Part shown: one piece after another, positions 21,604-58,562 of the stretch
Position numbering within the stretch: position 1 is the first letter of the stretch
Layout: each line of letters starts with the position of its first letter
Origin: Acorus gramineus
Taxonomy: Eukaryota; Streptophyta; Magnoliopsida; Acorales; Acoraceae
DNA: 64,000 nt
NCBI GenBank assembly: GCA_030737835.1
Contig: JAUJYN010000041.1
Span: 779,135 to 843,134, forward strand
Reading direction: 5' to 3'
Made by a program: the position numbers and the translations under genes
Notes under the pieces: generated by a model
What the model saw: only the letters and a program-made list of their open reading frames with translations
Database searches by the model: none
Told to the model about the DNA's origin: nothing

Positions 21604-22459
21604 GTTGTTACACTCAGTCTTTTTGACATTTTTTTTTTTTAGCCCACACAAATTTTCAAATTTTTTAATCATCCGAATTTCAATGTTGCTTAAGTTGAAA
21701 TGAAATTTTCAAACTCGTTCTAAAGAATATTTTAGTGATTTTGTCACCCCTCCACGAATACTGTTACACTTAGGCCATTTCTGCAGCCCCACTAACTTTC
21801 TCTAACCTAGTATATGTTTATCTACTAGATTAAAAAGTATAAAAAATATATTTAATTTATTCGAACAACATATTTTAGAAAAATAATAAGAAATTTCAAA
21901 TAAAAATTACAAGGTTGATTGTACTAAGGATTTTAATTTTCAATTATACCCTCTGGATCTCAATCTCGATCATATACTTCATCGTAGCCTCAAATAGGGT
22001 CCATTAACATCATAATTTCAAAAGGAAATAGTTAGAATCAGCCTCATTTCCTACTCTAAACGCAGTTCACATCATTTTAAATTTATTTTAAAACAATAAT
22101 ATATCTAATGTAATAAAATTTATATCTAGATATGTCAATGTGTGGTAGGTCGACCCGGACCCGACCAATCTAAATGCCTGACTCGAATGACACGGCAATT
22201 AAAACCATTCGGGCATAGGTCCACCCCGATCCGATTGACCTCATCCAAATACTATGTGATCTTTTTTTTTTTGTGATCCAACCCAATACCTATAATCTAA
22301 CCCAATATGAAAAAAAATCAGCTGACTCATATTTAAAAGTGTTATGGTATCATGTTATTTTTTTTCAAGTTGGAGTAATTAGATCAAATTTAGATTACTG
22401 GATTGATATATTTCCTTGCAAGCCGTGAGGGCTAGTCAAGGTCAAGCCATGAATATGAT
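21604..22459. other. intergenic, no gene seen
   Basis: AT-rich DNA. A short GC-richer piece near 22135-22260 contains GACCCGGACCCGACC-type repeats and may be a relic of another hAT-like MITE; its ends cannot be set. Confidence 0.4.
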
Positions 22460-22665
22460 ATTCCCAGATGAATGATTGAATTAAAGACTTTTGTTTAATT
22501 TCACAGCCCCTACTCTCACGTTAATAAGTCTACGTGAATGAGATTTTGAAATGACATTTTTTGTCTTCTTCTCTTCCCACCCCAACCCCCACGCAATGTT
22601 AAGGACTTCAAACGTCAACTGACCAGAATTTGTGGAGCATAAAAAACTATACATATAAAAATGAA
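22460..22665 (+). promoter_or_regulatory. relic copy of the LRR receptor gene promoter
   Basis: Aligns along its whole length with 37540-37735, the region just upstream of the LRR receptor-like protein start codon. Shared landmarks in the same order: GATTGAATTAAAGACTT, CACAGCCCC, TCACGTTAAT, CCCACCCCAACCCCCACGC, TGTTAAGGACT/CGTTAAGGACT, TTTGTGGA(G/A)CAT, and a TATA-like ACTATACATATAAAAA. No coding exon follows; the sequence runs into the Mutator-like element at 22796. It is probably the remnant of a tandem duplicate gene that lost its body. Confidence 0.65.
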
Positions 22666-22786: not shown

Positions 22787-22795
22787 TATGATTTA
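22787..22795 (+). repeat. left 9-bp target duplication of the Mutator-like element
   Basis: TATGATTTA, identical to 36853-36861 on the other side of the element. Confidence 0.9.
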
Positions 22796-22893
22796 GGGGG
22801 AATTGTCCAAATACCCCTGGACCAAGCCTCCCATTATTTTCATACCCCCTGACTTTGGAGAATTTTTATTTACCCCTGCAGAGCTGTCCCCTT
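22796..22893 (+). repeat. left terminal inverted repeat of the MULE
   Basis: Pairs with 36755-36852 reversed: AATACCCCT(G/A)GACCAA, then TTTACCCCTGCAGAG(C/T)TGTCCC near the inner end. The similarity fades into T- and C-rich sequence beyond about 100 bp. Confidence 0.88.
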
Positions 22894-22953
22894 TTTTTTG
22901 TACCCCTCACCCTTGCCACATCACCTTTCACTACCTAAATTACCCTCTCTACT

Positions 22954-23230
22954 TTATTTTCCCCCCAAAACCTTTGGAACTTCCCCCCAAAACCCTCTCC
23001 CCCAAATTACTCTCCCCTCCCCCCCCCCCCCCCCCCAAAACCCTCTCTCTCCCCAAATCACTATCTGTCTCACCTGATACTCCGTCGACCGCCTTGTCAC
23101 CGCCATCATCACCTTTGTTAAGGGCCTGCCCGAAGCAATCAAAGACGTTCATGTAGTGGGAGAGGCCGAGCAAGATCTTGCCTTTTATGGTGAACGTCTA
23201 TAGATGGTTAGATTCGATCTTCAAAGCTCG
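22954..23230 (-). other. unidentified coding-like stretch in the MULE left arm
   Basis: On the minus strand a GC-richer stretch reads GKILLGLSHYMNVFDCFGQA followed by LNKGDDGGDKAVDGVSGE, then low-complexity glycine-rich sequence from a C-run. It looks unlike the surrounding AT-rich arm and could be a captured host exon. I do not recognise the family. Confidence 0.25.
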
Positions 23231-23939
23231 ATGTCAACTGTTTTGGATCTCAGTTGCTGCATCTGAAGGTCCTCCACATCTTCTTCTTCTTCTCTTCTTT
23301 TTCTTCTTCTTCTTCTTCTACTATTGCAGATTCTCACTCATCTCCCATTGTTTCAGATGAATTTCACTTTTGGGTTCTTCTTGATCAGGTTAATTTAAAT
23401 ATTGGGTTTTGATATTTGTTTGGTTTACCTTTAATTTAAAATTATTTATTGTACTTGTTAATTCTGTAATTGCTTATAAAAATTCTGTAATTGGTCATTT
23501 ACATGTCTGTAGATTGATAATACATTTCTATAATTCATTATTACATTTCTATAATGTTGTATGTCCTTAGTTTAAATATATAAATGATATTACATCTCTG
23601 TTCAGTAGATAATAGTTTTTGTAGTTTCTGTTATAGTTGTTATGCAAATGATGGATTATATTACATTTTTGTTCTATAAATGGTAGTTTATATTATTATT
23701 GGGCATTACATTGATAGTTATTTTGTTGTAGTCGTTATATTGGTATACATTCTGTAATTGTTTATAAAGTTTTTGTAATTAGGAATTTACATATATGTAA
23801 ATTGTAATACATTGCTGTTATTGGTCATTATATTTCTGTAAAGTTGTATGTCCTTTGTTTAATTTCATTAGTAGTTTTTACAATTATTTATGTGATGTAG
23901 TTTCTTTAATATTGTTTAGGTGGTTGACTGATCGTTGCA

Positions 23940-24060
23940 TCTTTATATAGATTGAATAGCGCGTTCTTCCTTATGGAGTACGTTGGATGCCTAGTTTGAA
24001 AGCCTTTAGTGAGTTCGATTTCATCCAAGAGGACATGAAGAGGATCAAAGGGGAGACTTT
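23940..24060 (+). pseudogene. unidentified ORF piece left of the gypsy insertion
   Basis: An AG acceptor-like site (TATATAG near 23950) precedes a plus-strand stretch reading LPYGVRWMPSLKAFSEFDF then IQEDMKRIKGETF, running straight into the LTR at 24061. The residue mix looks protein-like (charged/hydrophobic alternation) but no family is recognised. The stretch at 34294-34428 on the far side is in the same orientation and may belong to the same original gene of the MULE. Confidence 0.35.
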
Positions 24061-26782
24061 TGTCACACCCCAGGGCGGCCGTCCCTGAAACGCGGCAAGT
24101 ATATATAATATCAGCAGTCTATACAGGAGATCAATAATATACTCTAAACGATAACAAAATGACAACACAGACAGAAAGGTGGCTGACATGATATATACAA
24201 ATAGCGGAAGCTAAAAGACTGAGTCTGTAATTCAAAGACATATTACAGACTCGATACATAATCAACTGTCCTGTGAGAGCCAATATATACAATGACATCC
24301 AATATAATACAAACGAGTGCCCAAACACGGAATATAATACATACAATCAAAAGGGATGCTGATGGCCTCTCACACTCGCAGAACGTGGCGCTGCTCCGCT
24401 ACTGCTGAAGTACCTCGGGGAGCTCCTCCTTCAGATCCGACTCAGTGATAACTGTAGAAAAATATGAGAGGGGTGACCCACACGCTCAGTGAATAGCACA
24501 ACCCATGCATCACAATTCATATTAACCATATAATTTTTATAGCCCTTAACACGGGACACTAAACAATCCAGTGGGTCATTACAACGCCGACCCACCACAC
24601 CCTCACCCTCACCCCCACCCTCCAAAAAGGGGTGACATGAATCTTTTGGGACTGACTAGACTGCTCGTGAGCCCCTGGTCATCACGAGCAGTCTTTCCCC
24701 GCTCCGTAGCTCGTCTGGTCTACTCCCACGATCAGCATAGTCCGACGCATTGGAGGTACCTACAGGTGAGAGCCCTCTGTCAGGACAGCCTGTCTAACGC
24801 CGGGGCTGCCACTACACGGAACCCAACCAGAAAGGGGAAGGTAGCCTACTCACACGGATACGATCCTCTTGGATCCATTGACAACACATACTATCAATTC
24901 TAATGTCATGAATTCTTCAGAATTCTTCCAGTGCGCATAACCACGATGCGAGGAAACATATATTATAACCACCGGTTATAATATTCTCTAAGGCATGATA
25001 ATAACCATAAGCTCACATTAGATTTAAATAAATTAAACTAATGGGACACACGCATAGGTCGAGGCTTTCCTAGCATAAAAACATGGTATCAGGATGCATG
25101 GCTTTTATATATATATCATAAGGGTGCATGTCCCTAACATACAAGGTCTAGGGTGGCATGCATACTACATAATAATCATGCCTGCATAGATTACATATAG
25201 TACTAGTTAATATTAAACTATGGTGTCCCAGGGGAGGACGATACACGCCTAAGTGCATATAACGCCTCCCTACTGGGTTGGATTGTCCCACTCACCGAAA
25301 CCCGGGTCGTCGCGTGACCGTCCGTCAAGATCTGCAAGACAGGGTATTCAACACGGTGAGTAAAATACACAAATACATAGAAAATACGCTAGAAATACCC
25401 AACACTCGGACAAGCGTACATACGGCCCGTACGCACGCGAGTCCGAGCACCCCGACACACTCCCGCACCCCCGGGCAGCCATATGCACGGCCACGCGCAC
25501 GCGCACGCACGCACACCGGCGCCCCGGGCGCACTGTCGCGCCCTAGCCCGCGCGCCCATGCACGCTGCCACGCCCCTGCCCACGCGCCAAGACACGTCGC
25601 ACGCTCAGGCGCACGCACGCGCGCGCCCGCGCGCATCGCGCGTCCAGCCCTGGGTGCACCCCCGCGCACTGCGACCCAACGCAGCGCCTCGCGCGCACAC
25701 CCGCACACACTGCGCCCCAGCGCGGTACCCCGCGCGCACTGCTCTCCCCCCCCCCGCGCAGCTCCCGCACGCACGCCCGCGCCCCACGCCAGCTCGCCCG
25801 ACAGTGCGCCTGCCCTGCCTGCCCTGCCTGCGCGCACAGGCCCGCGCACACGCACAGGGATGATCCCGCACGGGCGCCCGAGCCGCCCCAAACCTCCAAC
25901 AGCCCCCCTCCAACTCCCCAACCACCATGCATGCCATGAATACCCAAAAGCACATCCTAAACAAGCATCTACACAAGAAAAGGAAGGAAAGAAAGCTCAC
26001 CCAAGGAGTGGAGGGGAAGGGGAGGAAATCGGGTGCTCTTCACGCACCGATTCGCCACCTCTAAGACCACCACCACCAAGCCTTCTTCTCAGCCAAAGAA
26101 GGGCTGAAAACAGGGGAGAAAAGAAGCTAAGAGAGGAGAAAAACCAAGGGGAATGGAGATCCAAGACCATAGAAAGATAGATCGGGTCCTCACCTATCTT
26201 TCCTCCTTCAATGGCTTTTTCTTTTGAACTCTCTAACTAGGTCCAATGGGGGATTTAAAGAGAGGGAGGTGAGAGCTTTTGAAAGCTTGAAATGGGGGAG
26301 AAGATGAATAGGGGAGGGGATTAAAGGGGGACGCCCAACTTAAAGGCACACACACTCACCACACACACACACACTCACTTACCTTAGCATTAATTAGGTT
26401 TAGGTAGGTTTAGTTAGGTTTAGGTGAACTTTGACCCTAGTTAACCCAACCACACTAAAAACCAAAACCAATTGACCAAGTCAAGGGTCAACATTGACCA
26501 AGTCAAGTCTCCCAATGACTTTTCCCCCGGTCAAAACCCGGATACGATTCAGAACTGTGAAATTCTGAAACGTTACCGGAATTCGATGAAATTTTCGTGA
26601 GTGGCTTAAAATGGCACCAGGACACATAATATGCAGTTAGATTTTCAATCGGAGCTCTCAAACTCAGGGTGATAGCCAAAAGTCTAAAATTTTAGCGGTT
26701 CCGATCGAAAAATGAAAAAGTTGAAAAACTGTCAGAATGCTCCAATGGTTACCAGAAGGCTAAAAGTGACACATATATAACA
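24061..26782 (-). repeat. 3' LTR of the gypsy element
   Basis: 2722 bp, bounded by TG...CA when read on either strand (plus-strand start TGTCACACCCCAGGGCGG, end ACACATATATAACA). Contains a highly GC-rich alternating CG/CA block around 25430-25870 and a CA-rich microsatellite near 26345-26375. Confidence 0.93.
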
Positions 26783-26830
26783 TTCTTCCCCCCTTAGAAA
26801 ATTTTGTCCTCAAAATAAATACAAAGACAT

Positions 26831-27133
26831 CTAGGAAGGGAAAAGATGCGGATACGCGTCACGCATGGCGTCCTCTAGCTCCCAAGTGGCCTCGGCACCG
26901 GAACGGTGCTGCCATTGCACCTTGACCAACTGGACGGTCTTGGTGCGGAGCCTCTTCTCGCGGCGGTCCATGATCTCGATCAGCTGCTCCACGAATGACA
27001 AGTCCGGCTCGAAGACGAGCGGCTCGAACGGGATGACGTGAGCAGGATCGTGGACATAACGCCTCAGCTGTGAGACATGGAAGACGTCATGGGCCTGAGC
27101 CAACTGTGGGGGCAGAGCTATGCGATAGGCCAC
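26831..27133 (-). pseudogene. gypsy integrase C-terminus with chromodomain-like tail (fossil)
   Basis: The pattern HDVFHVSQLRRYVHDPAHVI is the usual junction after the plant chromovirus integrase. LVKVQWQHRSGAEATWELED that follows is a chromodomain-like motif. Part of the broken Tekay-type element. Confidence 0.85.
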
Positions 27134-27299
27134 CTCTCCAACCCGCTCGAGGATGAGGAACGGCCCAATGAAACGCGGACTCAGCTAACCCCGCACGCCA
27201 AAACGGAAGATGCCCTTCATCGGGGACACAAGACATGGTCACCAACCTCGAAGACAAGCTCACGGCGACGACGGATCGGCGTAGCTCTTCTGACGACTC

Positions 27300-30200
27300 T
27301 GAGCGACTCAGATACGCTCGCGAATCGTCTTCACCATCTCTGAGGTCTGGTGGATGATCTCTGGTCCCTCCAACTGGCGCTCTCCGACCTCGTCCCAACA
27401 CAAGGGGGACCTGCAGCTGCGGCCATAGAGCGCCTCGTAAGGAGCCATCTGGATACTCGAGTGGTAGCTGTTGTTGTAGGCAAACTCCACCAACGGAAGA
27501 TGTCTCTCCCAACTACCTCCAAAATCGAGAACGCAGGCTCACAGCCTGTCCGCCAGGGTCTGAATCGTCCTCTCCGACTGGCCGTCCGTCTGTGAATGAA
27601 ACGCTCTACTGAAGTGGAGGTTCGTACCGAGGGCGTGCTGGAGACTACGCCAGAACCTCGAGGTAAATCGCGCGTCTCGATCAGAAATGATGCTGACTGG
27701 AGTGCCATGGAGACGAACAACTGCGCCAGGGTGTCCAGAGAATCGGTGAGTCAGATGGGGAGGAAATGAGCGAACTTGGTCAGTCGGTCGACGATTACCC
27801 AGATGGCATCGCGGCCCGAACGTGACCTTGGCAAACCCGAGACGAAGTCCATGGTGATCTGCTCCCACTTCCACTGAGGAATCTCAATGGACTGCAGCTT
27901 CCCTGCAGGGCGCTGATGCTCCGACTTCACCTGCTGGCATACTAAGCAACGGGCCACGAAACGAGCAATATCCGTCTTCATCCCGCGCCACCAGTAGCCA
28001 CGACGAAGGCTCCCGTACATCTTCATGCCACCATGATGCATTGTGTACCTCGAACGATGGGCCTCGTCCAAGATCTTCTGCTTCAGCTCTGGGTTGTCAG
28101 AAATACAGACTCGGCCTCTGAACCGCAGGATCCCGTCCTCGTGAATCTGGTAGTTCGGACGCTCACCCCGGGCGACGCCTTCAGAGAGGACTATAAAATG
28201 CGGATCCTGACCCTGAGCAGTGCGGATCTCGTCGAGAAGAACTGGCTGCACCACTAGCCTGGCCAAAAAGCCACCCGCAGGAGTCTCTCGAACATTGATC
28301 CAGCAAGCGGCCTCCTCCAGAAGCCTCCAACGACGTACAGCCATGTGGGCGGCCATGCCCAAGGGCTGCCTACTGAGAGCATCCGCCACGACATTCGCCT
28401 TACCCGGATGGTAAGCGATGTCACAATCATAGTCCTTCAGGAACTCGACCCAACGTCTCTGACGCATGTTGAGCTCCGGCTGGGACTGCAAATATGTCAA
28501 GCTCTTGTGATCAGTAAAGAGCTCGAACTCCTCGCCATAGAGGTAGTGTCTCCACATCTTCAGCGCAAAGATGATCGCTGCCAACTCTAAGTCGTCGGTG
28601 GGGTAATTCTGCTCATGGGGCTTCAACTGAGGCGACGCGTAAGCCACAACCTTACCGTGCTGCATCAGGACGCAACCCACACCCAATCGCGATGCATCGG
28701 AGTAAACTGCGAACCCACCACTCCCAGACGGAAGGGTAAGAACTGGCGCTGAGGTGAGCCTTCGCTTCAACTCCAGGAAGCTCTCCTCGCAAGCTGGGGA
28801 CCACTCGAACCGGACATCCTTCCGAGTGAGGCGGGTAAGAGGAACAGCTATCTTCGAGAAACCCTCGACAAACCTCCTATAATAACCCGCCAAGCCTAGG
28901 AAGCTCCGAATCTCTGTGGGGTTCGACGGTCGACGCCAATTCGACACGGCGAGCGTCTTGTCCGGGTCCACAGATATGCCCTCGCTGGAAATCACGTGGC
29001 CCAGAAAGGCCATACGCTCCAACCAAAACTCGCACTTGCTGAATTTGGTGAACAACTGATGTCGGGCCAAAGTTTCCAAGACCGTGCGGAGATGGTAGCG
29101 TGCTCCTCAAGACTCCTCGAGTACACCAGAATATCGTCGATGAAGACTACTACGAAGGAATCGAGGAAGGGCTGAAACACCCGGTTCATCAGATCCATGA
29201 AGGCTGTCGGCGCATTCGTCAACCCGAACGGCAGTACTCTGAACTCATAGTGCCCATACCGGGTACGAAAGGCCGTCTTCAAAATATCTGACTCCCGGAT
29301 CTCAGCTGATAGTAGCCCGAATGAAGATCAATCTTAGAGAAGACACGCGCTCCCTGGAGCTGGTCAAACAGATCGTCGATCCGTGGTAAGGGGTACTTGT
29401 TCTTCATGGTCCGCTTGTTCAGCTGCCTGTAATCAATACAAAGCCACAGCGAACCGTCCTTCTTCCGGACGAACAGAACAGGGGCTCCCCACGGAGAAAC
29501 ACTCGGACGTGCGAAGCCCTTCTCTAGCAACTCCTCCAACTGCTCCTTGAGCACCTTCAGCTCTGCTGAGGCCATCTGGTACGGAGCTCTCGAAATCGGC
29601 TCGGTCCCCGGAATCAGATTTATCTCAAACTCGATCGCGCGATCCGGCGGGAATCCCAGAAGATCATCGGGGAAAACCTCAGGATACTCTGCCACGACCA
29701 GAGTCTGACTGATATCTGTCCGCAGCGGTGCGTCCTCCTGAGCAATATACGCCAGAAAGACCTCGCATCCTCCCTGAAGGAGTCTCCACGCCTGGATGGA
29801 CGACACGAACCCCAAAGGGGCTACGTCACGATCGCCCACGAACTGGAAGGACCTCCGACCCGGAAGGTGGAAAGACACCGACTTAGCAAAACAGTCTATG
29901 TTGGCGTGACTAGCTGAGAGCCAACCCATTCCCAGGATGGCATCGAAGTCCGTCATCGCGAGCTCTACCAACTCCACTGGAAACTCATGCTCCGCAACCA
30001 CCACGGTACACCCTCGGTACACAGAACAGAGGAGAATACGGTCTCCCACATGCAATGATATCTCCAGCATAACTTCAAGAGGGGCGGACGCCACGCCCGT
30101 CCGTCTCGCAAAAGTGGGAGACACGAACGAGTGTGTGGCTCTGGAATCAAACAACACATATGCAGGGAGCTGGGAGATCAGAACAATACCTTGGACGACG

Positions 30201-30394
30201 CTACCCGAAGCTTGAGCCTCCTCGGCCGAAAATGCTGCAACTTGGCCGTGAACAAACTGCAGCTGAGGAGTAGGGGCATGCCTCGCAGGCTGCGCTGGCT
30301 GCCTCCTCTGGTCAACACGGCCACCCTGTGGCTGGCTGCTGCTGTTGTAACTGCTGCTGCTGCTGCGGAGGCAGCTCGCGGGGTCAGCCAGCAT
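27300..30394 (-). pseudogene. gypsy pol region (fossil)
   Basis: Minus strand, in order. Aspartic protease region around 30200-29950 ([16 protein letters not shown]). Reverse transcriptase around 29500-29000 ([29 protein letters not shown]). RNase H around 28750-28430 ([25 protein letters not shown]). Integrase zinc finger and core from about 28060 ([51 protein letters not shown]). The domain order is typical of Ty3/gypsy. The region is broken. Confidence 0.92.
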
Positions 30395-30419
30395 CAGGGC
30401 AATTATACAAGATATGCCC

Positions 30420-31552
30420 GATGCGCTAACAGTGGTAACAGCGCTACCTCTCCGGCTGCCTGGTCTGGACAGGTACTACTGCAATGGGTGCTGGACCTCG
30501 CACTGGCACCACATCCACTGAATGAGAGGCAGCCACTGATTGATCAAAACGGGGCCGCTTCTTCTTGCGTTGTCCCTGGTCCTAGCTCCTGGGAGGTCTT
30601 TGGTCTGCAGAAGGGGTTGGAACCCCCATGGAGACCCCGAGGTCTTGCTCGACTGTCTTTGCCCGAGACACCAAGTCCGAGTACCTCGTGAATGCTTGGG
30701 AGGTGACATGCACCTGAATGGCGCTACTGAGACCCAGCTCGAAACGACGGCACCGTGTCTCCTCATCCATCACCAAGGCTAGGGCGAACCTGGAAAGCCT
30801 CGTGAAGCGCGTGGAGTAGTCAGCGACAGACATGGAGCCCTGCATCAGCTGCTCGAACTCCCGCATCACGATCAGGCGCGTCGAAAACGGGAAGTACTCC
30901 TCCAGAAAAAACTCCGGAATCCCGCCCATAGAAGCCGCTCCACTCCCTCGAGGATGTCCACCGATCGGGTAGCCCACCAGTCGGCGATGCTACCCTTCAA
31001 CATGAAGGTGGCCAGGGAGACATGCTGGCGGTCGGTGCAGTGCATGGTCGAGAAGATTGTGTCCACCTTCATCAACCAATGCTCAGGGGCAAGGGGATCC
31101 GCCGTCTGGCCATGGAACTCGGGAGGGTGGAGCTTCGGAAAGGCATTGAGGCCACTCTGATGCACTCGCGCTGCAGCCTCCAGCTCCACGTCCCTCTCCA
31201 GGGGATCCTGAACTCTCACCGCCGGAATCACCACGGGGACAGGGGGTACGTCGGGCACCACCAGTGGATCTGCCACCAAGGGGACCTGCGGAACTGCCTC
31301 TCGGGCCGCCCGTAGCTCCTGAATCTCTCGTGCCTGCTCAGCCAACACCCTAGTCTGGGCCTCCAGTGCCCTGGTCTGAGTCTCCACCAGATCTGCTATC
31401 CGAGCGAAAGCACGCTCCCATGCAGGAGGCTCCTGCGCCGGTCCTGGCCTCACAGCCGAGGACTCTCCAGTAGCATCCTCGCCTCCGATAGGTCTGGGAA
31501 CCTCCAAAGGCCGAGAGGGACCACGTCCACGCATTCCTCTGTCAGGAGGCAT
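30420..31552 (-). pseudogene. gypsy gag region (fossil)
   Basis: Begins MPPDRGMRGRGPSRPLE, has an Arg/Glu-rich coiled-coil-like stretch (LVETQTRALEAQTRVLAEQA) and the retrotransposon gag core (FHGQTADPLAPEHWLMKVD; ADWW). A CCHC-like knuckle region lies near 30430. Broken. Confidence 0.88.
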
Positions 31553-31653
31553 ATCAGCAACCTAGGAAAACCAGACACTAGGATCAGAATACTCATATAA
31601 AAATCCTAGGACTCATCTCTACGAAAAGAAGCAATTGGCTCTTACAGGACCAG

Positions 31654-31665
31654 GCTCTGATACCA
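31654..31665 (-). other. primer binding site of the gypsy element
   Basis: TGGTATCAGAGC on the minus strand, the standard initiator tRNA-Met primer complement, separated from the LTR edge by a few A residues. Confidence 0.92.
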
Positions 31666-31670
31666 ATTTT

Positions 31671-34292
31671 TGTCACGCCCCAGGGCGGCCGTCCCCGAGA
31701 CGCGGCAAGTATATATAATATCAGCAGTCTATACAGGAGATCAATAATATACTCTAAACGATAACAAAATGAAAACACAGACAGAAAGGTGGCTGACATG
31801 ATATATAAAAATAGCGGAACCTAAAAGACTGAGTCTGTAATTCAAAGACATATTACAGACTCGATACATAATCAACTTTCCTGTGAGAGTCAATATATAC
31901 AATGACATCCAATATAATACAAACGAGTGCCCAAGCACGGAATATAATACATACAATCAAAAGGGATGCTGATGGCCTCTCACACTCGCAGAACGTGGCG
32001 CTGCTCCGCTACTGCTGAAGTACCTCGGGGAGCTCCTCCTTCAGATCCAACTCAGTGATAACTGTAGAAAAATATGAGAGGGGTGACCCACACGCTCAGT
32101 GAATAGCACAACCCATGCATCACAATTCATATTAACCATATAATTTTTATAGCCCTTAACACGGGACACTAAACAATCCAGTGGGTCGTTACAACGCCGA
32201 CCCACCACACCCTCACCCTCACCCCCACCCTCCAAAAAGGGGTGACATGGGTCTTTTGGGACTGACTAGACTGCTCTTAGCCCCTGGTCATCACGAGTAG
32301 TCTTTCTCCGCTCCGTAGCTCGCCTGGTCTACTCCCATGATCAACACAGTCCGACGCATCGGAGGTACCTACAAATGGGAGCCCTCTGTCAGGACAGCCT
32401 GTCTAACGCCGGGGTTGCCACTACACGGAACCCAACCAGAAAGGGGAAGGTAGCCTACTCACACGGATACGATCCTCTTGGATCCATTGACAACACATAC
32501 TATCAATTCTAATGTCATGAATTCTTCAGAATTCTTCCAGTGCGCATAACCACGATGCGAGGAAACATATATTATAACCACCGGTTATAATATTCTCTAA
32601 GGCATGATAATAACCATAAGCTCAAATTAGATTTAAATAAATTAAACTAATGGGACACACGCATAGGTCGAGGCTTTCCTAGCATAAAAACATGGTATCA
32701 GGATGCATGGCTTTGATATATATATATCATAAGGGTGCATGTCCCTAACATACAAGGTCTAGGGTGGCATGCATACTACATAATAATCATGCCTGCATAG
32801 ATTACATATAGTACTAGTTAATATTAAACTATGGTGCCCCAGGGGAGGACGATACACGCCTAAGTGCATATAACGCCTCCCTACTGGGTTGGATTGTCCC
32901 ACTCACCGAAACCCGGGTCGTCGCGTGACCGTCCATCAAGATCTGCAAGGCAGGGTATTCAACACGGTGAGTAAAATGCACAAATACATAGAAAATACGC
33001 TAGAAATACCCAACACTCGGACAAGCGTACATACGGCCCGTACGCACGCGAGTCCGAGCACCCCGACACACTCCCGCACCCCCGGGCAGCCATACGCACG
33101 GCCACCCGCACGCCGCACGCTCGGGCGCACGCACGCGCGCGCCCGCGCGCACCGCGCGTCCAGCCCTGGTTGCACTTACGCGCACTACGACCCAGCGCAG
33201 CGCCTCGCGCGCACACCCGTCCACACTGCGCCCCTGCGCAGTACCCCGCGCGCACTGCGCCCCCCCCTGCGCAGCACCCGCATGCACGCCCGCGCCCCAC
33301 GCCAGCTCGCCCGACAGCGCGCCTGCCCTGCCTGCGCGCACAGGCCCGCGCGCACGGGCAGGGATGATCCCGCACGCGCGCCCGAGCCGCCCCAAACCTC
33401 CAACAGCCCCCAACAGCCCCCCTCCAACTCCCCAACCACCATGCATGCCATGAATACCCAAAAACACATCCTAAACAAGCATCTACACAAGAAAAGGAAG
33501 GAATGAAAGCTCACCCAAGGAGAGGAAGGTAAGGGGAGGAAATCGGGTGCTCTTCACGCACCGATTCGCCACCTTCCACCACCACCAAGCCTTCTTCTCA
33601 GCCAAAGAAGGGCTGAAAACAGGGGAGAAAAGAAGCTAAGAGAGGAGAAAAACCAAGGGGAATGGAGATCCAAGACCATAGAAAGATAGATCGGGTCCTC
33701 ACCTATCTTTTCTCCTTCAATGGCATCTTCTTTTGAACTCTCTAACTAGGTCCAATGGGGGATTTAAAGAGAGGGAGGTGAGAGCTTTTGAAAGCTTGAA
33801 ATGGGGGAGAAGATAAATAGGCGAGGGGATTAGAGGGGGACGCCCAACTTACAGGCACACACACTCACCACACACACACACACTCACTTACGCTTAGCAT
33901 TAATTAGGTTTAGGTAGGTTTAGTTAGGTTTAGGTGAACTTTGACCCTAGTCAACCCAACCACACTAAAAACCAAAACCAATTGACCAAGTCAAGGGTCA
34001 ACATTGACCAAGTCAAGTCTCCCAATGACTTTTCGCCCGGTCAAAACCCGGATACGATTCGGAACTGCGAAATTCTGAATTTTTACCGGAATTTGATGAA
34101 ATTTTCGTGAGTGGCTTAAAATGGCACCAGGACACATAATATGCAGTTAGATTTTCAATCGGAGCTCTCAAACTCAGGGTGATAGCTAAAAGTCCAAAAT
34201 TTTAGCGGTTCCGATCGAAAAACGAAAAAGTTGAAAAACTGTCAGAATGCTCCAATGGTTATCAGAAGGCTAAAAGTGACACATATATAACA
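31671..34292 (-). repeat. 5' LTR of the gypsy element
   Basis: 2622 bp. Nearly identical to 24061-26782, differing mainly in length of the GC-rich block (33050-33390 here). Confidence 0.93.
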
Positions 34293-34293
34293 A

Positions 34294-34428
34294 GAACAAC
34301 TTATTTCATTAGGATATGAAGACAGCGTTATAATTCAAACGATTGATGTATCTATTTTAATGACACTTTTAGAAAATATTTATAACTATATCATATCAAT
34401 TCATTTTGTGGACGTTGAATACACTTAA
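34294..34428 (+). pseudogene. unidentified ORF piece right of the gypsy insertion
   Basis: Plus-strand frame starts at the LTR edge and reads EQLISLGYEDSVIIQTIDVS then ILMTLLENIYNYI, ending in a stop after 44 codons. It may continue the piece at 23940-24060. Similar exon-like fragments lie downstream in the MULE: QTSYVPHCKDSILSLLDML near 34594-34680 and a related stretch with YNLLDML near 35455-35550. Family unknown. Confidence 0.35.
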
Positions 34429-36234
34429 ATATGATAATGATAAGACTTACAGTTCATGAATTTATTATAATGACACTGAGAATATATTTGTAACCATTTA
34501 TGTTTAAACATATTTGTGTATGTTAAATGCTCTCTGTAGGTAACTATGAAATACCTGTAACTATTTGTATAATTTCTGTAATTGACCATCGTCAGACATC
34601 TTATGTCCCTCATTGTAAAGACTCAATTCTATCATTGCTGGATATGCTAGACATCCACTGTGAGGGGCATCTCGTAGAAGTATCAAGGATTATATAGCTA
34701 TGTGTATACTTTCTATATGTATCATTGTGTGTTTCTATGAGCACACCAGACTACGAAAGCTCTCAACCTATGGTAAAGTTTCAAGGATTTTTCGATGGGA
34801 GAGGATGGAAGACAAAAGCCCCCTCATCTGCTGCTCTAAACAATTCCATTTCCTCATAGTAGAGCATGCAACTCATAATGTTTATGTGATCATGAACTCA
34901 TTCATGGAAGAGACATAAGAATAATTCTAAGCTATCTTTAACTATTTGGTAGCTCATTTAGCTCTTCAGTGGTGATTTTCTCCTCACTGGATGGTTATTT
35001 TAATTTCATACTCTATAGACATGCACTATAACTCAAACGTTAATTGATTAGAACCACTTAATACATGATTATTCTAGTATTATTGGAGCTCAAATTAATC
35101 ATCATTAAATAGTCCTAGTTAGTTATGTTATATATATTATAGTTATGTTGTAGTTGTTACATCGGGCATTGTTAGTTATGTTGTAGTTGTTACATTAGAT
35201 ATATAATGTTAGTTTCTTACTGGTCTTTGTAATTAGATTGTTTCTGTTTTGTAAATGGTAGTTTCAATTATGTAAATGATATTTTATATTATGTATATCG
35301 TAGTTTCTGTTCTATAAATAGTATTTCTGTAATTTATGAGTAAAATGCTGTAAATCGTAATTATATTTTTGTGATTGGACATTAGATTTTTGTATTAATA
35401 TGATTTGCATATATTTTACACAGAGAAGGTCAACCATAGATGCTACACGTTGACTATGATCAGACCCAACACATACCATCTATTCCTCCTTGAAAAACGT
35501 ATCCAATTCTATAATCTGCTGGACATGTTAAAAATTTACTGGATGTTAAGTACTATTTTTTATCGTTTCTTTTTGTACATGACTTATTGTTCTTGTATCT
35601 ATTGTAAATACACTATGGAATGTGTGTATAATCATTTTGTGTTTAACCATCATTGTGCACACTAAATGCTATCTCTAGGTAAAAATTAAGTATCTGGAAC
35701 TATGCATATCATATCTGTATGTATCATGTTGTAGTTCTGTATTTCTGTAACTCTTTATGTAAGTACATTTGATAGTTATTGTAAATCATAAATATATTGA
35801 TCTAATTAACATATAATGTTTTTGTATATGTAATTAACATATATTGATGTAACTAACATTCTCTAAGTTGGATTCTCATATCCTGTGCGCCGAAGTGATC
35901 CACATTTTTCTAAGTGATCCACATTGTGAAATATTTGACCAGATTGTCTAATGAGGCTATGAGCTTTATTAAATTAAGTTATTTGGATGTTCACCAATTC
36001 CCGAGCATTTGATTGCTCGACTGCGTTTTCATTATCACCTTCCTGTGAGTCATTCACGTGACTGAGATCCGCTTCAAGTCCATATGTACTTACAAAAAAC
36101 ATAGCATAAGTTATAAAATATAAGAGTAAACGCACAGAATTAACATATCAATTTACGTGAAACTATGATAAAATTGTATGATGATAGAAATTACATATAT
36201 TATGTATGATATCTATCTTTGTCAAAAGCCTTTA
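34429..36234. other. MULE right arm with exon-like fragments
   Basis: AT-rich sequence with degenerate repeats built on TGTAATTG/TTACATT words (about 35120-35400 and 35700-35860). A minus-strand frame near 36090-35970 reads YGLEADLSHVNDSQEGDN then ENAVEQSNARELVN before a stop; it could be a terminal exon of something captured. A plus-strand frame at 34745-34915 contains FRWERMEDKSPLICCS. None is recognised. Confidence 0.3.
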
Positions 36235-36440
36235 ATGGCTTCCATGAATAACTGGTTGACTTTCTCTCTATCCCACAAGAGCTTCCTCAACATACCCAAT
36301 CACAGTTAGTCTCTCGTGGGGATCTCGGATTCGGATCGAACAACGAACCTTCTCTAAACATCCCAACACTCAGATTAAATGATTCTTTTGGTATCCTTGA
36401 AGCTTTCAATAGACCCCATTCTTTAGAAGAGCAAAAATAC
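36235..36440 (+). pseudogene. captured BABY BOOM/PLETHORA-like N-terminal fragment
   Basis: Starts ATG and reads MASMNNWLTFSLS. After a one-base loss (reading shifts at about 36273) it continues PQELPQHTQSQLVSRGDLGF, then PSLNIP and FGILEAFNRP. This order (MNNWLxFSLSPQELP ... LGF ... PSLN ... FGILEAFNR) is that of the N-terminus of the AP2-domain embryogenesis/root factors BABY BOOM and relatives (ANT-like clade). The AP2 domains are absent. It lies inside the MULE, about 300 bp from the right TIR, so it is best read as a host gene fragment captured by a Pack-MULE. The frameshift makes it unlikely to encode a useful protein; it could be a source of small RNAs. Confidence 0.75.
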
Positions 36441-36754
36441 CTAAACAGTAATAAAAGCCTTCCTTTGATCCTTGTTTTTTTCATAGGTTTGTTGTTCTCT
36501 TTTCAATGTATCAATTTATCTCAAGCTTCTCTCCTTTTTTTTCTTTGGATATAACCCATTATTTCATAAGCATGGACGGATCGGAACGAACTCATCCGAG
36601 GAAGTAGAAGAAATAATTTGGGGAAGAAGAAGAGAAAGTGCTGGTTTGGAGAAGAAGAAGAAAAAGAAAAAGAAAAAAAAATGGAATATCATTTTTATTT
36701 GTCTTATATGAAGGGGTATTACTGGTATTAAGAAAAAACAGGGATAAAAGAAAA

Positions 36755-36852
36755 AAGGGACAACTCTGCAGGGGTAAAAAAAAAATTATTTAAAATCCAG
36801 GGGCACAGAAAAAATAAGGGGGTTGGTCTAGGGGTATTTGAACAATTCCCCC
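36755..36852 (-). repeat. right terminal inverted repeat of the MULE
   Basis: Reverse partner of 22796-22893. Ends GGGTATTTGAACAATTCCCCC, followed directly by the TATGATTTA duplication. Confidence 0.88.
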
Positions 36853-36861
36853 TATGATTTA
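36853..36861 (+). repeat. right 9-bp target duplication of the Mutator-like element
   Basis: TATGATTTA, identical to 22787-22795. Confidence 0.9.
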
Positions 36862-36869
36862 TTAGCATC

Positions 36870-37052
36870 ATGTACTCACATTAATGAAGTATATGTTTCA
36901 TCAAAAAAAAATTATATTTTTATTATAAATGTATCCATACAATTCATTGCAGTATATCTTTCATTTTTAATAAAAATATGCATTTCACTAGATGAGGTAT
37001 ACTCTTTAAAAAAAATCTAAGCGTGTGTAGACTGAAATTGAGACTAAAAAAT
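36870..37052 (-). repeat. MITE family A, copy 4 (reversed)
   Basis: Read on the minus strand it starts TTTTTTAGTCTCAATTTCAGT, has GCAATGAATTGTATGGATAC in the middle and ends GTGAGTACATGATG, matching copies 1-3. It lies just outside the MULE. Confidence 0.55.
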
Positions 37053-37471: not shown

Positions 37472-37539
37472 AATTTATTTGAGTATATGTTTTAGGGAAA
37501 TAGTTAGAAACTCAAAAAAAAAAAAAAAAAAGATGATAG

Positions 37540-37788
37540 TCCCAAATGAATTATTGAATTAAAGACTTTGTTTAACTCCACAGCCCCAACTTTCACGTTA
37601 ATGACTCCACATGAGATTTTGATTGGACTGATTTTTCTTCTTCTTCTCTCCCCACCCCAACCCCCACGCCCACGTTAAGGACTCCAAGTCAAAACCAAAC
37701 TTTGTGGAACATTAAAAACTATATATGCATATAAAAAAGAAGTCTGTGAGCACTTCAAAAAAACAAAACAAAACACAAAGTTGTGAGT
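37540..37788 (+). promoter_or_regulatory. promoter and leader of the LRR receptor-like gene
   Basis: Contains TATATA (37721-37727) and TATAAAAAA (37730-37738), about 50 bp before the start codon, so the leader is short. A CT-rich stretch (37640-37665) and a W-box core in reverse (AGTCAAAA near 37687) are visible; W-boxes are WRKY sites common in defence-gene promoters. The block is duplicated at 22460-22665. Confidence 0.5.
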
Positions 37789-43700: not shown

Positions 43701-46222
43701 ATATGTGCGGTCCGTTTTGCAGCCCTGTACACTATGATAGCATATTGTATAATGCACTATCAGTGTATGAAATTTTATCATAGTGTACAATCAAAGTGTT
43801 TTTTTTCATTTTTCCAAAGAGAAAATAAATACACTATTGTATCTTAAGATAAGGAGTATAATTTTTTAAATAATGAAAAACTGTGTGAATTGCAAATGAG
43901 GATGAACATATCATTTTCCTTTTCTATAATGGTTTGTTATTTATTGTTCTAAGCTATCCCAATTGCATATCTGCAGGTCTCTGGAGACTCCCTCATATTC
44001 AAGAATTAAACCTTGGTTCCAATGAGCTCACTGAAATTTCATGGCTTTCCAACCTAACATCCTTGACTACTCTTTTTTTAGATGACAATACACTCAATGA
44101 TTCCTCTATTATAAAAGATAATATCACAGTTTACTTTCTGCCCTTTTAGTGGTGGACACTTGTTTAGGTATTATAAAATTTTCAATCATGATATTGAGCG
44201 ATATGATTTATGTAGTTTTTATGTTTAATAATGAGAAAGTCAAAAGATTTATATTTGATTTGACTTTTATCCAATTTCTCATCTTACCTATTAAATTACA
44301 GGAGGGATTATCTACACAATATCTTTGTGTTTTAATTTTTTTTTTTTTTATATAAAGTGCATTTTGTTGAGCCTTGATGACTATTTCAAAGTTGACAAAA
44401 ATGTGTTCTGTTGTTATTCATCACACTTGATTTCCTCTGTTATGCAGATCTTTGCCAGCTACAAGATTTACAAGAGTTAGATCTCTCGAAAAATTCAATG
44501 AAGGGCAACATTGATACGTGTTTGAAAAGTCTGTATTCCCTAGAATTTCTAGATCTATCTTCCAATCAATTAGACGGTGCATTTCCATTTTCCACATTTG
44601 CCAACCTCTCCAACATATCCTTTATTCATCTATCAAATAACGACCGACTAGAGGTTGAAACAGAGTCTCCATCATGGGTTCCATCATTCCAATTGGAGTC
44701 CCTTCTTCTAAGCAACTGTGTACTCAACAAACGTAGTGGGCGAAGGGTCCCTAGTTTCCTGTCCACACAAAATGCATTGATCGACATAGATTTGTCCCAT
44801 AGTTCGATCATAGTGAGCAATCTGTCAGAGTTGATTAATAATGTTACTCAAAATTTATATTTGGGGGGAAATACATTTCATGGACCGTTCCTTCAGGATA
44901 ACAAAAATAGCAGTTCATCACTCGAATTCCTAGACTTGTCTGATAGTAATATATGTGGAACACTTCCCCCAAATTTTACAATCTTCTTTACTAAACTAGT
45001 TAAGTTTAATATGTCTGGCAATTCCTTGCATGGGACTATCCCTCTCTCTCTTGGTGTCCATCCATCGCTGGTTTACTTAGATTTGTCCAGAAATAATTTT
45101 ACAGGAGAGATACCACAATCGATCATGAAAAATCAAAATTTGATTTATTTGGACTTGGCGAACAATAACCTGATCGGGAAGATATCTTTTAGGAATTGCA
45201 GTATGCCCCGGCTACAATATTTCAATCTATATGATAATCACCTCACAGGGTCCATACCTATAAGCTTGTTTAATAGCTCAAATATAATGTTCTTGGATAT
45301 TAGAAAGAATTTCTTCTCAGGTAATATTCATAGTTCATTATTTACACTTCACAATGCGGTAATACTTCTCTTGTCTGAAAATAATTTTGAAGGTCCAGTT
45401 CCAACTCAAGTGTGTCATATGCAAAATCTTCACATCTTAGATCTTTCAAATAACTATCTTTCTGGAACAATTCCTAATTGTCTGAAAAATATCAGTTCTT
45501 GGATCATAGATTCTCTAATTGACTACCCTATGTTCATGGTTGCCCCTTTTAGACTTTTTCAAATTTCTACCAACACAGTTGTGACTAACTTAACGACAAA
45601 AGGTAGGTGCGATTCTTACAAGGGCACTCCCCTCTCTCTAATGACCGAGCTAGACTTATCCAAGAATCAGTTTTCTGGTCCCCTCCCTTTTCAAATGGGA
45701 TATTTGAGTGCGCTCCACTCGTTAAACTTGTCAAACAACCACCTCACAGGACCAATTCCAAATTCCTTTCAAAAATTGGAAAATATAGAGAGTTTGGACC
45801 TCTCTAATAATTATCTATCAGGTGAAATTCCTTCCCAGCTTGTCAAACTCCACACGCTCTCCGTATTTCGAGCGGCGTACAATAACTTGTCAGGCATTAT
45901 CCCATACAAAGATCAATTCTGCACATTCAATAAAAGCAGCTTTGAAGGTAATCCTGGCTTGTCTGGAGTATTGATAGAGAAGAATTGCTGGTCAATGCAT
46001 GAGACTTCACAAACATACCATGACAGCAGTCACAACAGTAATGGTGATCAGGAAGATACGTCGAAGGCCATTGATAATGATGTGATCTTCTATTCATTCA
46101 TCGCGGCATCATTTGCGATCGGATTTTGGGGTGTCATTGCGGTGCTCGCCTTCAACAAGAATGGGCGGATCAAGTTTTTCATGGCGGCTGATTATTTTCT
46201 CTATGCATGCATGGATGTGTGA
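37789..46222 (+). CDS. LRR receptor-like protein (RLP), multi-exon
   Basis: Extracellular LRR protein with one membrane segment and no kinase, of the RLP group resembling Arabidopsis RLP1/13/14/15/56, whose LRRs are spread over small exons. Proposed exons: 37789-38175 (signal peptide with a Cys-rich core, then LRRNT with ALLDIKHSL and DCCNWTGVECD), 38934-39152, 41635-41775, 42823-42963, 43977-44117, 44448-46222. The last exon holds most LRRs, the island-like NTVVTNLTTKGR, the final repeats (NNYLSGEIPSQL), SFEGNPGL, an acidic spacer and TM segment VIFYSFIAASFAIGFWGVIA, with a ~20-residue tail. Total is about 930 aa. Oddities: exon 1 ends in phase 0 while exon 2 needs phase 1, so a small exon is missed or a frameshift exists; exon 5 has AT where its GT donor should be. 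Likely role is ligand perception with a co-receptor kinase. It may be a decaying gene. Confidence 0.78.
39777..40004. repeat. hAT-like MITE in RLP intron 2
   Basis: Ends GGTTTGTTTGGAAACGAG and GCAACCAAACGAT are inverted. The interior pairs AGCAGCTTTTGG/CCAAAAGCT and AGCTGT/ACAGCT. Typical of short plant MITEs; no target duplication confirmed. Confidence 0.4.
40264..40860 (+). repeat. tandem duplication (~360 bp period) in RLP intron 2
   Basis: Sequence from GAGATAAACATTGTTTGG is repeated about 360 bp on (GAGATAAACATCGTTTAG near 40628). Both copies contain TTAATTATATAACTAAAGTT and TCTTCAATGATTTAAATGAG. Diverged, so older than the exon units that follow. Confidence 0.75.
40925..44385 (+). repeat. 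triplicated intron+LRR-exon unit (~1.15-1.19 kb each)
   Basis: Three successive units each contain, in order: ATTGT(G)GAGAATAGT, GATTAGATGAAATTAATCAG, a MITE-like stretch (GCATATTGTATA...GTGTGAATTG), the acceptor CATATCTGCAG, a 141-bp LRR exon, AATATCACA..., and TTTTGTTGAGCCTTGATGA. Exon starts are 1188 and 1154 bp apart. Each exon encodes 47 residues (two LRRs: LPHIQELNLGSNELTEISW plus LSNLTSL...LNDSSIIK) and is phase 1 at both ends, so units can be added or skipped without shifting frame. Confidence 0.92.
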
Positions 46223-46818: not shown

Positions 46819-47742
46819 CCCCCAGCCCGAGCACGCCAGCACTGCCAGCCCACTCAGCGCACCTAGCACGACCAGCACTGCCAGCCCCAGACCCGCGCAC
46901 ACCCGCGCGCACGCCGCGCGCACGCACGCCCGCACGCGCCCAGCATACGCGCTGCCTGGGCCGCTGCCGCTGCTGCCTGCTGCCCGGGACAGTGGCCCTG
47001 CCTGCCGAGCACCTCCACCGCCCCTCCCATGACCGCCGACCACCTCCGACCACCCTCCGACGACCCCCACTGCCGCCGACCACCCCCAAACACAAACCCC
47101 CCCCCCCCTAGCAATCATCTAAACAAGAAAACGGAGGGAAAGAAGCTTACCGAGGGGGAGGAAGGGGTGACCGGGTGCTCTCCACGCACCGAAACCCTTC
47201 ACAACGGCCTTCTCACGCCCCGATCTAGCTTGGCCTTCGAAATGGGCCAAATCAGAGGACGAAAAGGGGAGGTCGGGGAGGCTAGGATCGTCGGAACTCG
47301 GATTTGAAGACACCGGAGCGTAGATCGGGACCCGATCTACACTTCCCGTGCTTTGGGTTTTTGGTTTTGATGGGTTTAAGGGCTTCAAATGGGAGCTTTT
47401 GAGAGAGGGGGAGAGAGGGAAATCAAGTCGTAGGGATGATGAATAGTGTAGGGGGTGATTTAGATTCCATTTATATAGTGTGCGACTTAAAAACCCGGAT
47501 ACGCCCCGGAACTGTGAAATTTTTGGAAACGATGCCGGAATTCGATGAAATTTTCATGAGTGGCTTAAAATGGCACCAGGACACATAATATGCAGTTAGA
47601 TTTTCAATCGGAGTCCTCTAACTCGGACGATAGCTAACAGTCCAAAATTATGCGGTTCCGATCGAAAAACACTAAAAATTTTAAAACTGCCAAAAATGCT
47701 CCAATGATTGCCAATAGGCCAAAAAGTGACACATATATAACA
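46819..47742 (-). mobile_element. truncated gypsy LTR at a duplication junction
   Basis: The GC-rich block and the terminal ~700 bp of a Tekay-like LTR (AATTTTCATGAGTGGCTTAA; ending GACACATATATAACA). It is joined on the left to LINE sequence and on the right directly to RLP coding sequence (CTATCCCTCTCTC). A fossil lacking internal region and one end. Confidence 0.88.
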
Positions 47743-48929
47743 CTATCCCTCTCTCTCTTGGTGTCCATCCATCGCTGGCTTACTTAGATTTGTCCAGAAA
47801 TAATTTTACAGGAGAGATACCACAATCGATCATGAAAAATCAAAATTTGATTTATTTGGACTTGGCGAACAATAACCTGACCGGGAAGATATCTTTTACG
47901 AATTGCAGTATGCCCCGGCTACAATATTTCAATCTATATGATAATCACCTCACAGGGTCCATACCTATAAGCTTGTTTAATAGCTCAAATATAATGTTCT
48001 TGGATATTAGAAAGAATTTCTTCTCAGGTAATATTCATAGTTCATTATTTACACTTCACAATGCGGTAATACTTCTCTTGTCTGAAAATAATTTTGAAGG
48101 TCCAGTTCCAACTCAAGTGTGTCATATGCAAAATCTTCACATCTTAGATCTTTCAAATAACTATCTTTCTGGAACAATTCCTAATTGTCTGAAAAATATC
48201 AGTTCTTGGATCATAGATTCTCTAATTGACTACCCTATGTTCATGGTTGCCCCTTATAGAATTTTTTATATTTCTACCAACACAGTTGTGACTAACTTAA
48301 CGACAAAAGGTAGGTGCGATTCTTACATGGGCACTCCCCTCTCCCTAATGACCGAGCTAGACTTATCCAAGAACCAGTTTTCTGGTCCCCTCCCTTTTCA
48401 AATGGGATATTTGAGTGCGCTCCACTCGTTAAACTTGTCAAACAACCACCTCACAGGACCAATTCCAAATTCCTTTCAAAACTTGGAAAATATAGAGAGT
48501 TTGGACCTCTCTAATAATTATCTATCAGGTGAAATTCCTTCCCAGCTTGTCAAACTCCACACGCTCTCCGTATTTCGAGTGGCGTACAATAACTTGTCAG
48601 GCATTATCCCATACAAAGATCAATTCTGCACATTCAATAAAAGCAGCTTTGAAGGTAATCCAGGCTTGTCTGAAGTATTGATAGAGAAGAATTGCTGGTC
48701 AATGCATGAGACTTCACAAACATACCATGACAGCAGTCACAACAGTAATGGTGATCAGGAAGATACGTCGAAGGCCATTGATAATGATGTGATCTTCTAT
48801 TCGTTCATCGCGGCATCATTTGCGATCGGATTTTGGGGTGTCATTGCGGTGCTCGCCTTCAACAAGAATGGGCGGATCAAGTTTTTCATGGCGGCTGATT
48901 ATTTTCTCTATGCATGCATGGATGTGTGA
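47743..48929 (+). pseudogene. truncated duplicate of the RLP (3' half)
   Basis: Begins in mid-exon, exactly at the sequence found at 45036 of the full gene, and continues to the same stop. It keeps the last LRRs, the spacer, the TM segment and the same 3' flank. By eye only some 15 bases differ over ~1.18 kb, several of them amino-acid changes (for example SVFRA/SVFRV, LSGVL/LSEVL). No signal peptide, LRRNT or promoter is attached; the first in-frame Met lies at 47790. It could be transcribed only from the LTR upstream, whose sense runs the other way. Best called a fragment pseudogene. Confidence 0.88.
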
Positions 48930-49295: not shown

Positions 49296-52007
49296 TTTTT
49301 TTTTTGTTGGGTAATTTATTTATATTGAAAAAAGGAAGAAAATGTACAAAGCAGGAAGGATTACAGAGAATATGAAAGGAGAAGTAGGCTTTTCAATGCC
49401 TATACCAAAATACAAATTAAAGACTAGAGACCTCCATTACAAACTTGATATCCGATAAGTGCTCAAGAAATTCATCGTTGAATTGCTCCGAGCGAATCCG
49501 TGTGACACCAATTTCGGACTGTGCTGCTGCAAGGTAATCAGCAGCACTATTACCCTCTCTAAATACATGTGAGATTTTCCAGAGTTGCAATTGACCCACT
49601 GGATTGTGGAGTTCCCGTAGATCTCTGAAAGAATACCATGGGATTGATCCCCTCCCTTGTGACCATGCAATGGCTGTTATAGAGTCACTCTCGCTCCATA
49701 CCTTAGAGGCCCCATGCGCAATACTTAGCTTTATACCAGCAACCACTCCTTTAAGCTCAAGCAAATTGATTGAGGAGGCTCTTGTTCTTGCTGATAAAGC
49801 CTCAAAACAGTCCCCGTGGTGGTCTCGAATCAATGCCCCATAACCAAAACGATCATCGGAGACAGACCCATCTGAGTTTGCTTTCAACCAGCTAGGAGAG
49901 GGGAGTAGCCATCGAACCTCTTGAATGGAAGTGCTCTTCTCTATGAAATGCATGCCAAAGATGGTCGACATTTTGGCTATTAAGGAATTTAATGGGGCCT
50001 CTAGTGTCTTATTTTTGAACAGGAAACGACCTTCCTCAAGCACCTTACGGACTAACCACTGTTTGTGGATCGATTGAGAGCGAAACACCCTGGAATTCCT
50101 CTCAATCCAGATTGCCCACATGGTCTTTGCAATGATAAAATGAAGGACCTTCCTTTCAGCTTTAGAAATACCCTGCTTTAAAATCTGCATCATATGTTCT
50201 TGGAGATTACTTGATCTAACAAATCTGAAACCCAAGGCCTTGCAAATGGCATTCCAAACAAAAGCAGAGTAAGAACAGTGAATAAAGAGGTGGGAGATGG
50301 TTTCTTGTTCTACTCGACAGAGAGAGCAGCGAGACTCTGAAACTAGCCCTTTGATAAGCAACCTGTCCAAAGAAGGAAGTTTGTTCAATGCAGCTTGCCA
50401 ACAGAGGAAGCTATATCGAGGCGGCTGAGAAGTGTTCCATATTGTCTTACACCAGTCGAGACTTGGGGCAAGATGGTCTTAGGTGATTCCAGGCCAAGGA
50501 AGAGGAGATGCTGCCAGTTTTGTGCCCTGTCCAGATAATAACATCTTCACCAAGGCCACCTACATCTAACATTAAGATTTCCTCCCAGATTCCTTCAAAT
50601 TCGATCGGCCATCGAGGAGGTTTGAACCATTTACCATCTCGGATTAGAGCACTAACTGTATCTTGATCAGGAGGTCCCCAATTTAAGAGTACTGATTCAT
50701 TGAAATGTTCATGGAGACACTTTCCTTGTAGCCATGGATCGAACCATAAAGAAATACTTTTACCTTCGAATATGACATAACTTACATCTGGTTTAATCCA
50801 TCTTCGGGCCTTTAATAATCGATTCCATATCCAAGATTGGGATGATTTGATACTGATTGACCATATATTCTTCGATTTGAAATATTTTTTCCTCATCCAT
50901 TGCACCCATAGAGAATGATGGTTAGCGACTACCTCCCAAAACCTTGCTCCTATGCTCGCTTCATTCCAGGTGGTGATTCTCCTCATTCCTAGACCTGCTT
51001 CAAGAAGAGGAGAACATATTGTGTTCCAGTTCACTGCATGCATTTTCTGCTTTCCATCAACTCCCACCCATAAGAAATTTCGAATCTCCCTCTCGATCTA
51101 CCTAAGAGTCTTCTTAGGTAAAGCGAAAGCCGAAGTCCAGTAAATGCTTAAACTGAATAGCACTGACTTCATCAATTCGATCTTGCCCGCTTTAGATAGA
51201 AAAATGGCTGACCAAGATTGCAATTTTGCACGAATCTTGTCTATAAGAGGAAGACATAGTTGGTGAGTCAGAACCCCTCTTAATAAAGGTAGGCCAAGGT
51301 TTTTAACCGGAAGAGATAGGCTTTGGATGCCAAGAGTTTGAGAGAATTCCTCATTTGATGAACTAAGAAAAAGCTGGCTTTTTGATGGATTGACATGAAG
51401 ACCAGAGATGTTAGAGAACCAGTCGAAGAGCTCTTTCATGGCTGATGCAGAAGAGGAGGTGGCATCCATAAAAAACATTAAATCGTCCGCAAAACAAAGA
51501 TGCGAGACATTCAAATCTGTCTTTATGTATTGGCCAATCTTTCTATCTTGTACAGCCTTTTCAATACTTCTTGATAGGACTTCCATCACTATGACAAAGA
51601 GGAGGGGGGAGAGGGGATCTCCCTGCTTGAGACCACATTTTGAGGAGAAGAAACCGTGCGGGCTACCATTGATTAGAACTGAATATGACGCTGTCTGGAT
51701 GCATTGTGTCACCCAAAGGATCCACTGATTTGGGAAATTCATACCCTTCATAGCTTCAGTTAAGAAATCCCATATCATGCTATCGAAGGCCTTACAAAGG
51801 TCAATTTTGATGCAAGCACGCCCCTCGAAGGATGGAAGAGAGAGATATCTCGAGAGTTCGTGAGCCATTAATATACTATGTACTATGCTCCTCCCCTTTA
51901 CAAAGGCTGACTGGTTTGGAGCAATAAGTGTAACGTCCCCTGGATCCACGGTCCCGTTTTGAAGCGTGAAATCCGGGAGCCTTAACTAAATTCCTCGAAT
52001 CTCAGAG

Positions 52008-52044
<37 letters not shown>

Positions 52045-57151: not shown

Positions 57152-57260
57152 TGTCACGCCCCAGGGCGGCCATCCCCGGGACGCGGCAAGTGTATACATG
57201 ATATCAGCAGTCTAAACAGGAGATCAATAAATCACTCTAAACAACAACTAAAATGACAAC
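57152..57260 (-). mobile_element. 109-bp LTR tip adjoining a full LTR
   Basis: TGTCACGCCCCAGGGCGGCC and the next ~100 bp repeat the first bases of the LTR at 57261. Either a tandem duplication of the LTR end, or the tip of an older LTR into which the next element inserted. The second choice predicts ACAAC-flanked sequence beyond the window. Confidence 0.7.
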
Positions 57261-58238: not shown

Positions 58239-58562
58239 GATGGTCACCCTTGGTCCACCGATAGTCTCTCCCCACTCCGTAGGCCGCTTGGCCACTCCCA
58301 CATTCAGCACAGTCCGTCCCAAATCAGGAGGTGCCTACTGATGGGAGCCCCTCCACGGGACAGCCTTTCTAACGCTGGGGTAGTCTCTACACGGATCCAA
58401 CGAAGGGAACAGAACAGCCTATCCATACGCATATGATCCACTCGGATCCGCCGACAACACATCTCAACAACTCTAATGTCTTGAATTCTTCAGAATTCCT
58501 CCAGGGCGCATAACCAAGATGCGGGGAAAAGGTATAAAAATAATAACAAGGTTATAATATTA

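Follow-up and report, generated by a model that had tools for sequence, protein, structure and literature searches.

A Pack-MULE-like insertion in Acorus gramineus with a probable captured piece of a euANT gene

Introduction

Does a short stretch of Acorus gramineus DNA hold a piece of a developmental gene that was captured by a MULE, and could such a piece have any role? The pickup of gene pieces is common among MULEs. For the rice reference genome, more than 3000 Pack-MULEs have been reported (PMC4858842). A sequence-only reading of the 64,000-nucleotide stretch analysed here (the window) placed a BABY BOOM (BBM)/PLETHORA (PLT)-like N-terminal fragment inside a Pack-MULE, and noted that captured fragments of this kind can be transcribed and feed small RNAs against the parent gene. 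Our analysis indicates that the locus is very probably a Pack-MULE-like insertion with a captured, decayed 5' piece of a euANT gene, most likely BBM, and with an LTR retrotransposon that came to lie inside it later (Table 1).

Table 1. Features of the insertion, with coordinates in the window.
Feature	Coordinates	Strand	Evidence and remarks
MULE left target-site duplication (TSD), TATGATTTA	22787-22795		Identical at all 9 bp to 36853-36861; the two copies immediately flank the outer ends of the TIRs
MULE left TIR, first bases GGGGGAATTGT	22796-22910	+	79% identity with the right end in reverse complement
MULE left part, including left TIR	22796-24060		No recognised protein domain; sequence, GC and Pfam scans
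LTR retrotransposon inside the MULE, Ty3-type by eye	24061-34292	-	LTR alignment; LTRs 24061-26782 and 31671-34292
MULE right interior	34293-36234		30% GC with patches of ~40%; no Pfam match at curated cut-off
BBM-like euANT N-terminal fragment, degenerate, probably captured	36235-36413	+	tblastn, frameshift-tolerant scores, motif counts, GC
MULE right TIR	36738-36852	-	Pairs with left TIR
MULE right target-site duplication, TATGATTTA	36853-36861		Perfect 9 bp

The fragment and its likely parent

From 36235 to 36273 the translation reads MASMNNWLTFSLS in one frame, and from 36273 it continues as PQELPQHTQSQLVSRGDLGFGSNNEPSLNIPTLRLNDSFGILEAFNRP in another, with a one-base frameshift near 36273. 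The blocks PQELPQ...LGF...FGILEAFNR of the second frame extend up to 36413. The sequence-only reading of 36235 onward, with its shift of frame before PQELPQ, was exact, and translation and tblastn agree on it. The frame of the fragment's own ATG is open for 24 residues and reaches a stop at 36306, as given in the list of open reading frames. The fragment spans ~180 bp, or approximately the first 60 residues of a euANT protein.

We compared the window with N-terminal sequences of PLT2, ANT and three BBM proteins, all reconstructed and typed after the fragment had been read. The reconstructed poplar-type BBM N-terminus is the best-fitting reference. The two best matches of this sequence in the 64 kb by tblastn, at 36273-36413 (E 3e-4) and 36235-36306 (E 1e-3), are collinear; these E-values were obtained without composition correction. 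In a frameshift-tolerant alignment it scores 106, with the match ending at 36413, and its best score on the minus strand is 42. As a control, which covers the poplar-type BBM query only, the window was shuffled in full 100 times with dinucleotides preserved; the mean score was 41 (sd 3.4) and the maximum 50. Five reversed queries scored at most 48 on either strand. The middle of the fragment is shorter than the corresponding part of the reconstructed poplar-type BBM.

The motif of the fragment, WLTFSLS, is present as a single copy in the window and is one residue off WLGFSLS. The latter is described as the euANT2 motif of the whole euANT lineage and is reported in 69% of euANT sequences (PMC6361745); it is printed as WLGFSLF in PMC9669440. 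With the motif glycine left free (WLxFSLS), there is one match in the six frames of the window, against 0.006 expected from base composition. FGILEAF, a string that was picked after the window had been read, is likewise matched once in six frames, against 8e-5 expected on the same basis.

The other reconstructed references fit less far. Arabidopsis BBM (score 56, end 36293), Medicago BBM (53, end 36341) and PLT2 (60, end 36344) each have their best window match at the fragment. Given where these matches end, they support its first part only, and the FGILEAFNR block is uncovered. The score of 60 for PLT2 has a weak margin, because this protein also has a minus-strand match near 55778 with a score of 55. 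The ANT reference peaks away from the fragment (44 at 57644, and 45 on the minus strand). Only poplar-type BBM is both far above chance and extends to 36413.

It is hardly credible that the fragment is a chance resemblance and no captured gene piece at all. The matching text is indeed degenerate and of small length, and its best-fitting reference was reconstructed once the fragment had been read, but none of the 100 shuffles came to half the score of 106, and chance would have to account for two collinear blocks together with a published motif that carries a single change. That the parent was not BBM but a different euANT gene (an unassigned AIL, or one of PLT1/2-like type) deserves more consideration, although we regard it as unlikely. 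PLT2 outscores both the Arabidopsis and the Medicago BBM among the reconstructed sequences, and the euANT2 motif is common to the whole lineage. Against this, the poplar-type BBM, itself a reconstructed sequence, scores 106 and also spans the PQELP and FGILEAFNR blocks. All references except the euANT2 motif were reconstructed after reading, and for this reason we consider the assignment to an N-terminal piece of euANT type good, and a parent that was a BBM homologue instead of PLT likely, the latter on one reconstructed sequence. Of the BBM/PLETHORA-like N-terminus proposed earlier, the euANT-type piece stands, its score being more than twice the shuffle maximum, and BBM over PLT is likely from reconstructed sequences.

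The absence of an AP2 domain, which had also been claimed, was upheld for the window: tblastn of a reconstructed AP2 region gave one match, at 60187-60107, outside the MULE and at chance level (E 0.65). The reconstructed middle part of BBM likewise had one match in the window (E 0.20), outside the MULE.

Collections of prokaryote, viral and plasmid sequences, with no plants among them, contained no true relative, as expected. Among 27 pattern matches in prokaryote genomes, one was confirmed by tblastn, a match of 13 residues at 77% identity in a Clostridia MAG, and we judged it to be chance. In two scans of viral sequences the pattern was matched 1 and 21 times, with 0 confirmed, and a distant search of plasmids gave 0 matches. 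A match of residues 47-88 of the ORF to the PDB sequence of an uncharacterised protein (E 0.12) was also judged to be chance.

The MULE insertion

The TIR arms align over ~115 bp at 79% identity. MULE TIRs are usually reported as 100-500 bp long, and TSDs as 8-11 bp (PMC4858842); long TIRs and a TSD of 9 bp are both present here. The search for the TSD covered 13 x 13 (169) pairs of end offsets at four lengths, and the three perfect readings that it returned all represent one 9-bp duplication in shifted register, for which the probability of chance occurrence at one exact position is ~5e-6. When the flanks were joined with one copy of the TSD, the joined sequence aligned across the junction to repeats at 671-458, 17893-17641 and 20631-20444, with 70-74% identity, the alignments having just 22, 49 and 61 bases to the left of the junction. 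We considered that the two TIRs might derive from different insertions, and this was rejected on the basis of the perfect TSD and the empty-site alignment.

These observations support the interpretation of 22796-36852 as a single MULE insertion into an older repeat copy. The empty site is backed by the alignments, but is less firm than the TIRs, the TSD and the fragment. The earlier placement of the fragment inside a MULE is borne out by the TIRs and the perfect 9-bp TSD, with the empty-site alignment in support, and the end of the fragment lies ~300 bp short of the right TIR, as had been proposed. A dispersed repeat of ~150-250 bp occurs at the three empty-site positions and at 36862-37015, and the target of the MULE was seemingly one copy of it.

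Without the nested LTR retrotransposon, the MULE sequence is ~3.8 kb long. A transposase was sought by Pfam in open stretches of the MULE of at least 35 codons, a floor below which decayed transposase pieces escape detection; no transposase family was found in any of the 45 stretches, and no match reached a curated cut-off. Below these cut-offs were Beta-tre_PLH30, APP_amyloid, DUF1378, HPIH, DUF4901, FeoB_associated, C_LFY_FLO and Cons_hypoth698, none of which is a transposase family. The structure makes a non-autonomous, Pack-MULE-like element well supported.

Pack-MULEs are reported to favour capture of GC-rich regions (PMC8277862). The GC content is 26% over 23400-24060 on the left, 30% over 34293-36234 on the right and 41% over the fragment (36235-36440). 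The value for the fragment is above that of the MULE interior as a whole, in line with GC-rich capture, but this indication is weak, as other windows are similar (0.396 at 35866-36090, and up to 0.40-0.43 in other 100-bp windows of the MULE). By eye, ~36229 and 23998 share a likeness of 10 bp, which we put down to chance.

The nested LTR retrotransposon

Most of the length of the MULE insertion is an LTR retrotransposon that the earlier reading did not include. Its minus-strand ORFs were named by eye as reverse-transcriptase and integrase-like. Substitutions accumulate at a rate of ~1e-8 per site per year. With this rate, the divergence of the LTR pair (K2P 0.030 over 2609 aligned sites) would place the age of the element at the order of 1-2 million years. 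No 5-bp TSD was seen at its two edges (ACTTT and AGAAC), and part of the MULE has thus possibly been lost. The element may be recombinant, or may lie at a deletion or rearrangement.

Further stretches of this LTR element, in diverged form (70-90% identity), are found at 55475-57857, 58155-59596, 60499-61630, 62596-62960 and 63638-63996. The first two of these contain long open frames in several frames simultaneously, probably by chance.

Discussion

The history that we propose begins with the copying of a short 5' gene piece into a MULE near its right end. The piece would come from a member of the euANT lineage, most likely a BBM homologue. This capture would have occurred during repair or replication of the MULE or its ancestor. 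Capture by Pack-MULEs is biased to the 5' ends of genes, and the fragment fits this bias. Gap repair has been proposed as the capture route of Pack-MULEs, and replication fork switching has been proposed for animal relatives, with the suggestion that it perhaps holds in plants (PMC4858842, PMC8277862). An older copy of a repeat, situated upstream of what looks like a receptor-like-protein gene, would then have been the target of the MULE, and the LTR retrotransposon would have entered the MULE at a later date. With its reading frame broken, the captured piece is most likely non-functional today. Three elements of this scheme are inferred: how the piece was captured, which gene it came from and that it has no function.

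With its frame lost, the glycine of WLGFSLS replaced and its middle shortened, the fragment is most likely a non-functional scrap, inert, decayed and unable to give a working protein. The alternative is that the fragment undergoes transcription and gives rise to small RNAs by which the parent BBM/PLT gene is damped; it draws on reports that Pack-MULEs can be transcribed and have been linked to small RNAs (PMC4858842, PMC8277862). We consider it highly improbable here, given a piece that is short (~180 bp), frameshifted and diverged, with nothing seen in the sequence in its favour. We give a similarly low probability to the reading in which transcription of a MULE-borne BBM/PLT N-terminal piece produces either small RNAs or a transcript, and the parental embryogenesis gene would become less active as a result. 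For the locus to be of consequence, the scrap would have to be expressed and to act on the intact gene. Pack-MULEs move gene pieces around plant genomes, and on its own a further case in which the piece is a broken scrap from a developmental gene contributes little.

We regard this locus, most likely an inert scrap inside a MULE, as a fresh example of a well-known type of event, and as ordinary. It resembles Pack-MULEs of rice and other plants in its ~115-bp TIRs, 9-bp TSD, piece of a host gene and lack of a recognised transposase. It differs from them in the fair divergence of its TIRs (79% identity) and in the large LTR retrotransposon that it contains; in addition, a single captured piece was identified, and the parent is putative. 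The fragment resembles BBM/euANT (AIL/PLT) AP2 factors in having a euANT2-like block and collinear N-terminal blocks. Unlike those factors, it covers ~60 residues, is frameshifted, has WLTF for WLGF and a shortened middle, and lacks AP2 domains, of which euANT proteins have two. In the open-licence literature we found no work that joins Pack-MULEs with BABY BOOM or AINTEGUMENTA; for Pack-MULE together with PLETHORA, the titles and the openings of abstracts were not about PLETHORA genes.

Neighbouring sequences

On either side of the MULE, 22452-22665 and 37530-37741 are 81% identical. The second copy lies just upstream of the apparent receptor-like-protein start near 37790, and because it adjoins this start, the first copy may be the relic of a duplicated promoter. 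Genes or pieces of genes for leucine-rich-repeat receptor-like proteins, recognised by eye in translations, are clustered from 37790 onward, at 44396-46222 and at 47730-48929. Also named by eye, on the minus strand, were LINE-like reverse-transcriptase ORFs (49417-54969) and ORFs with ABC transporter-like pieces (4186-6019).
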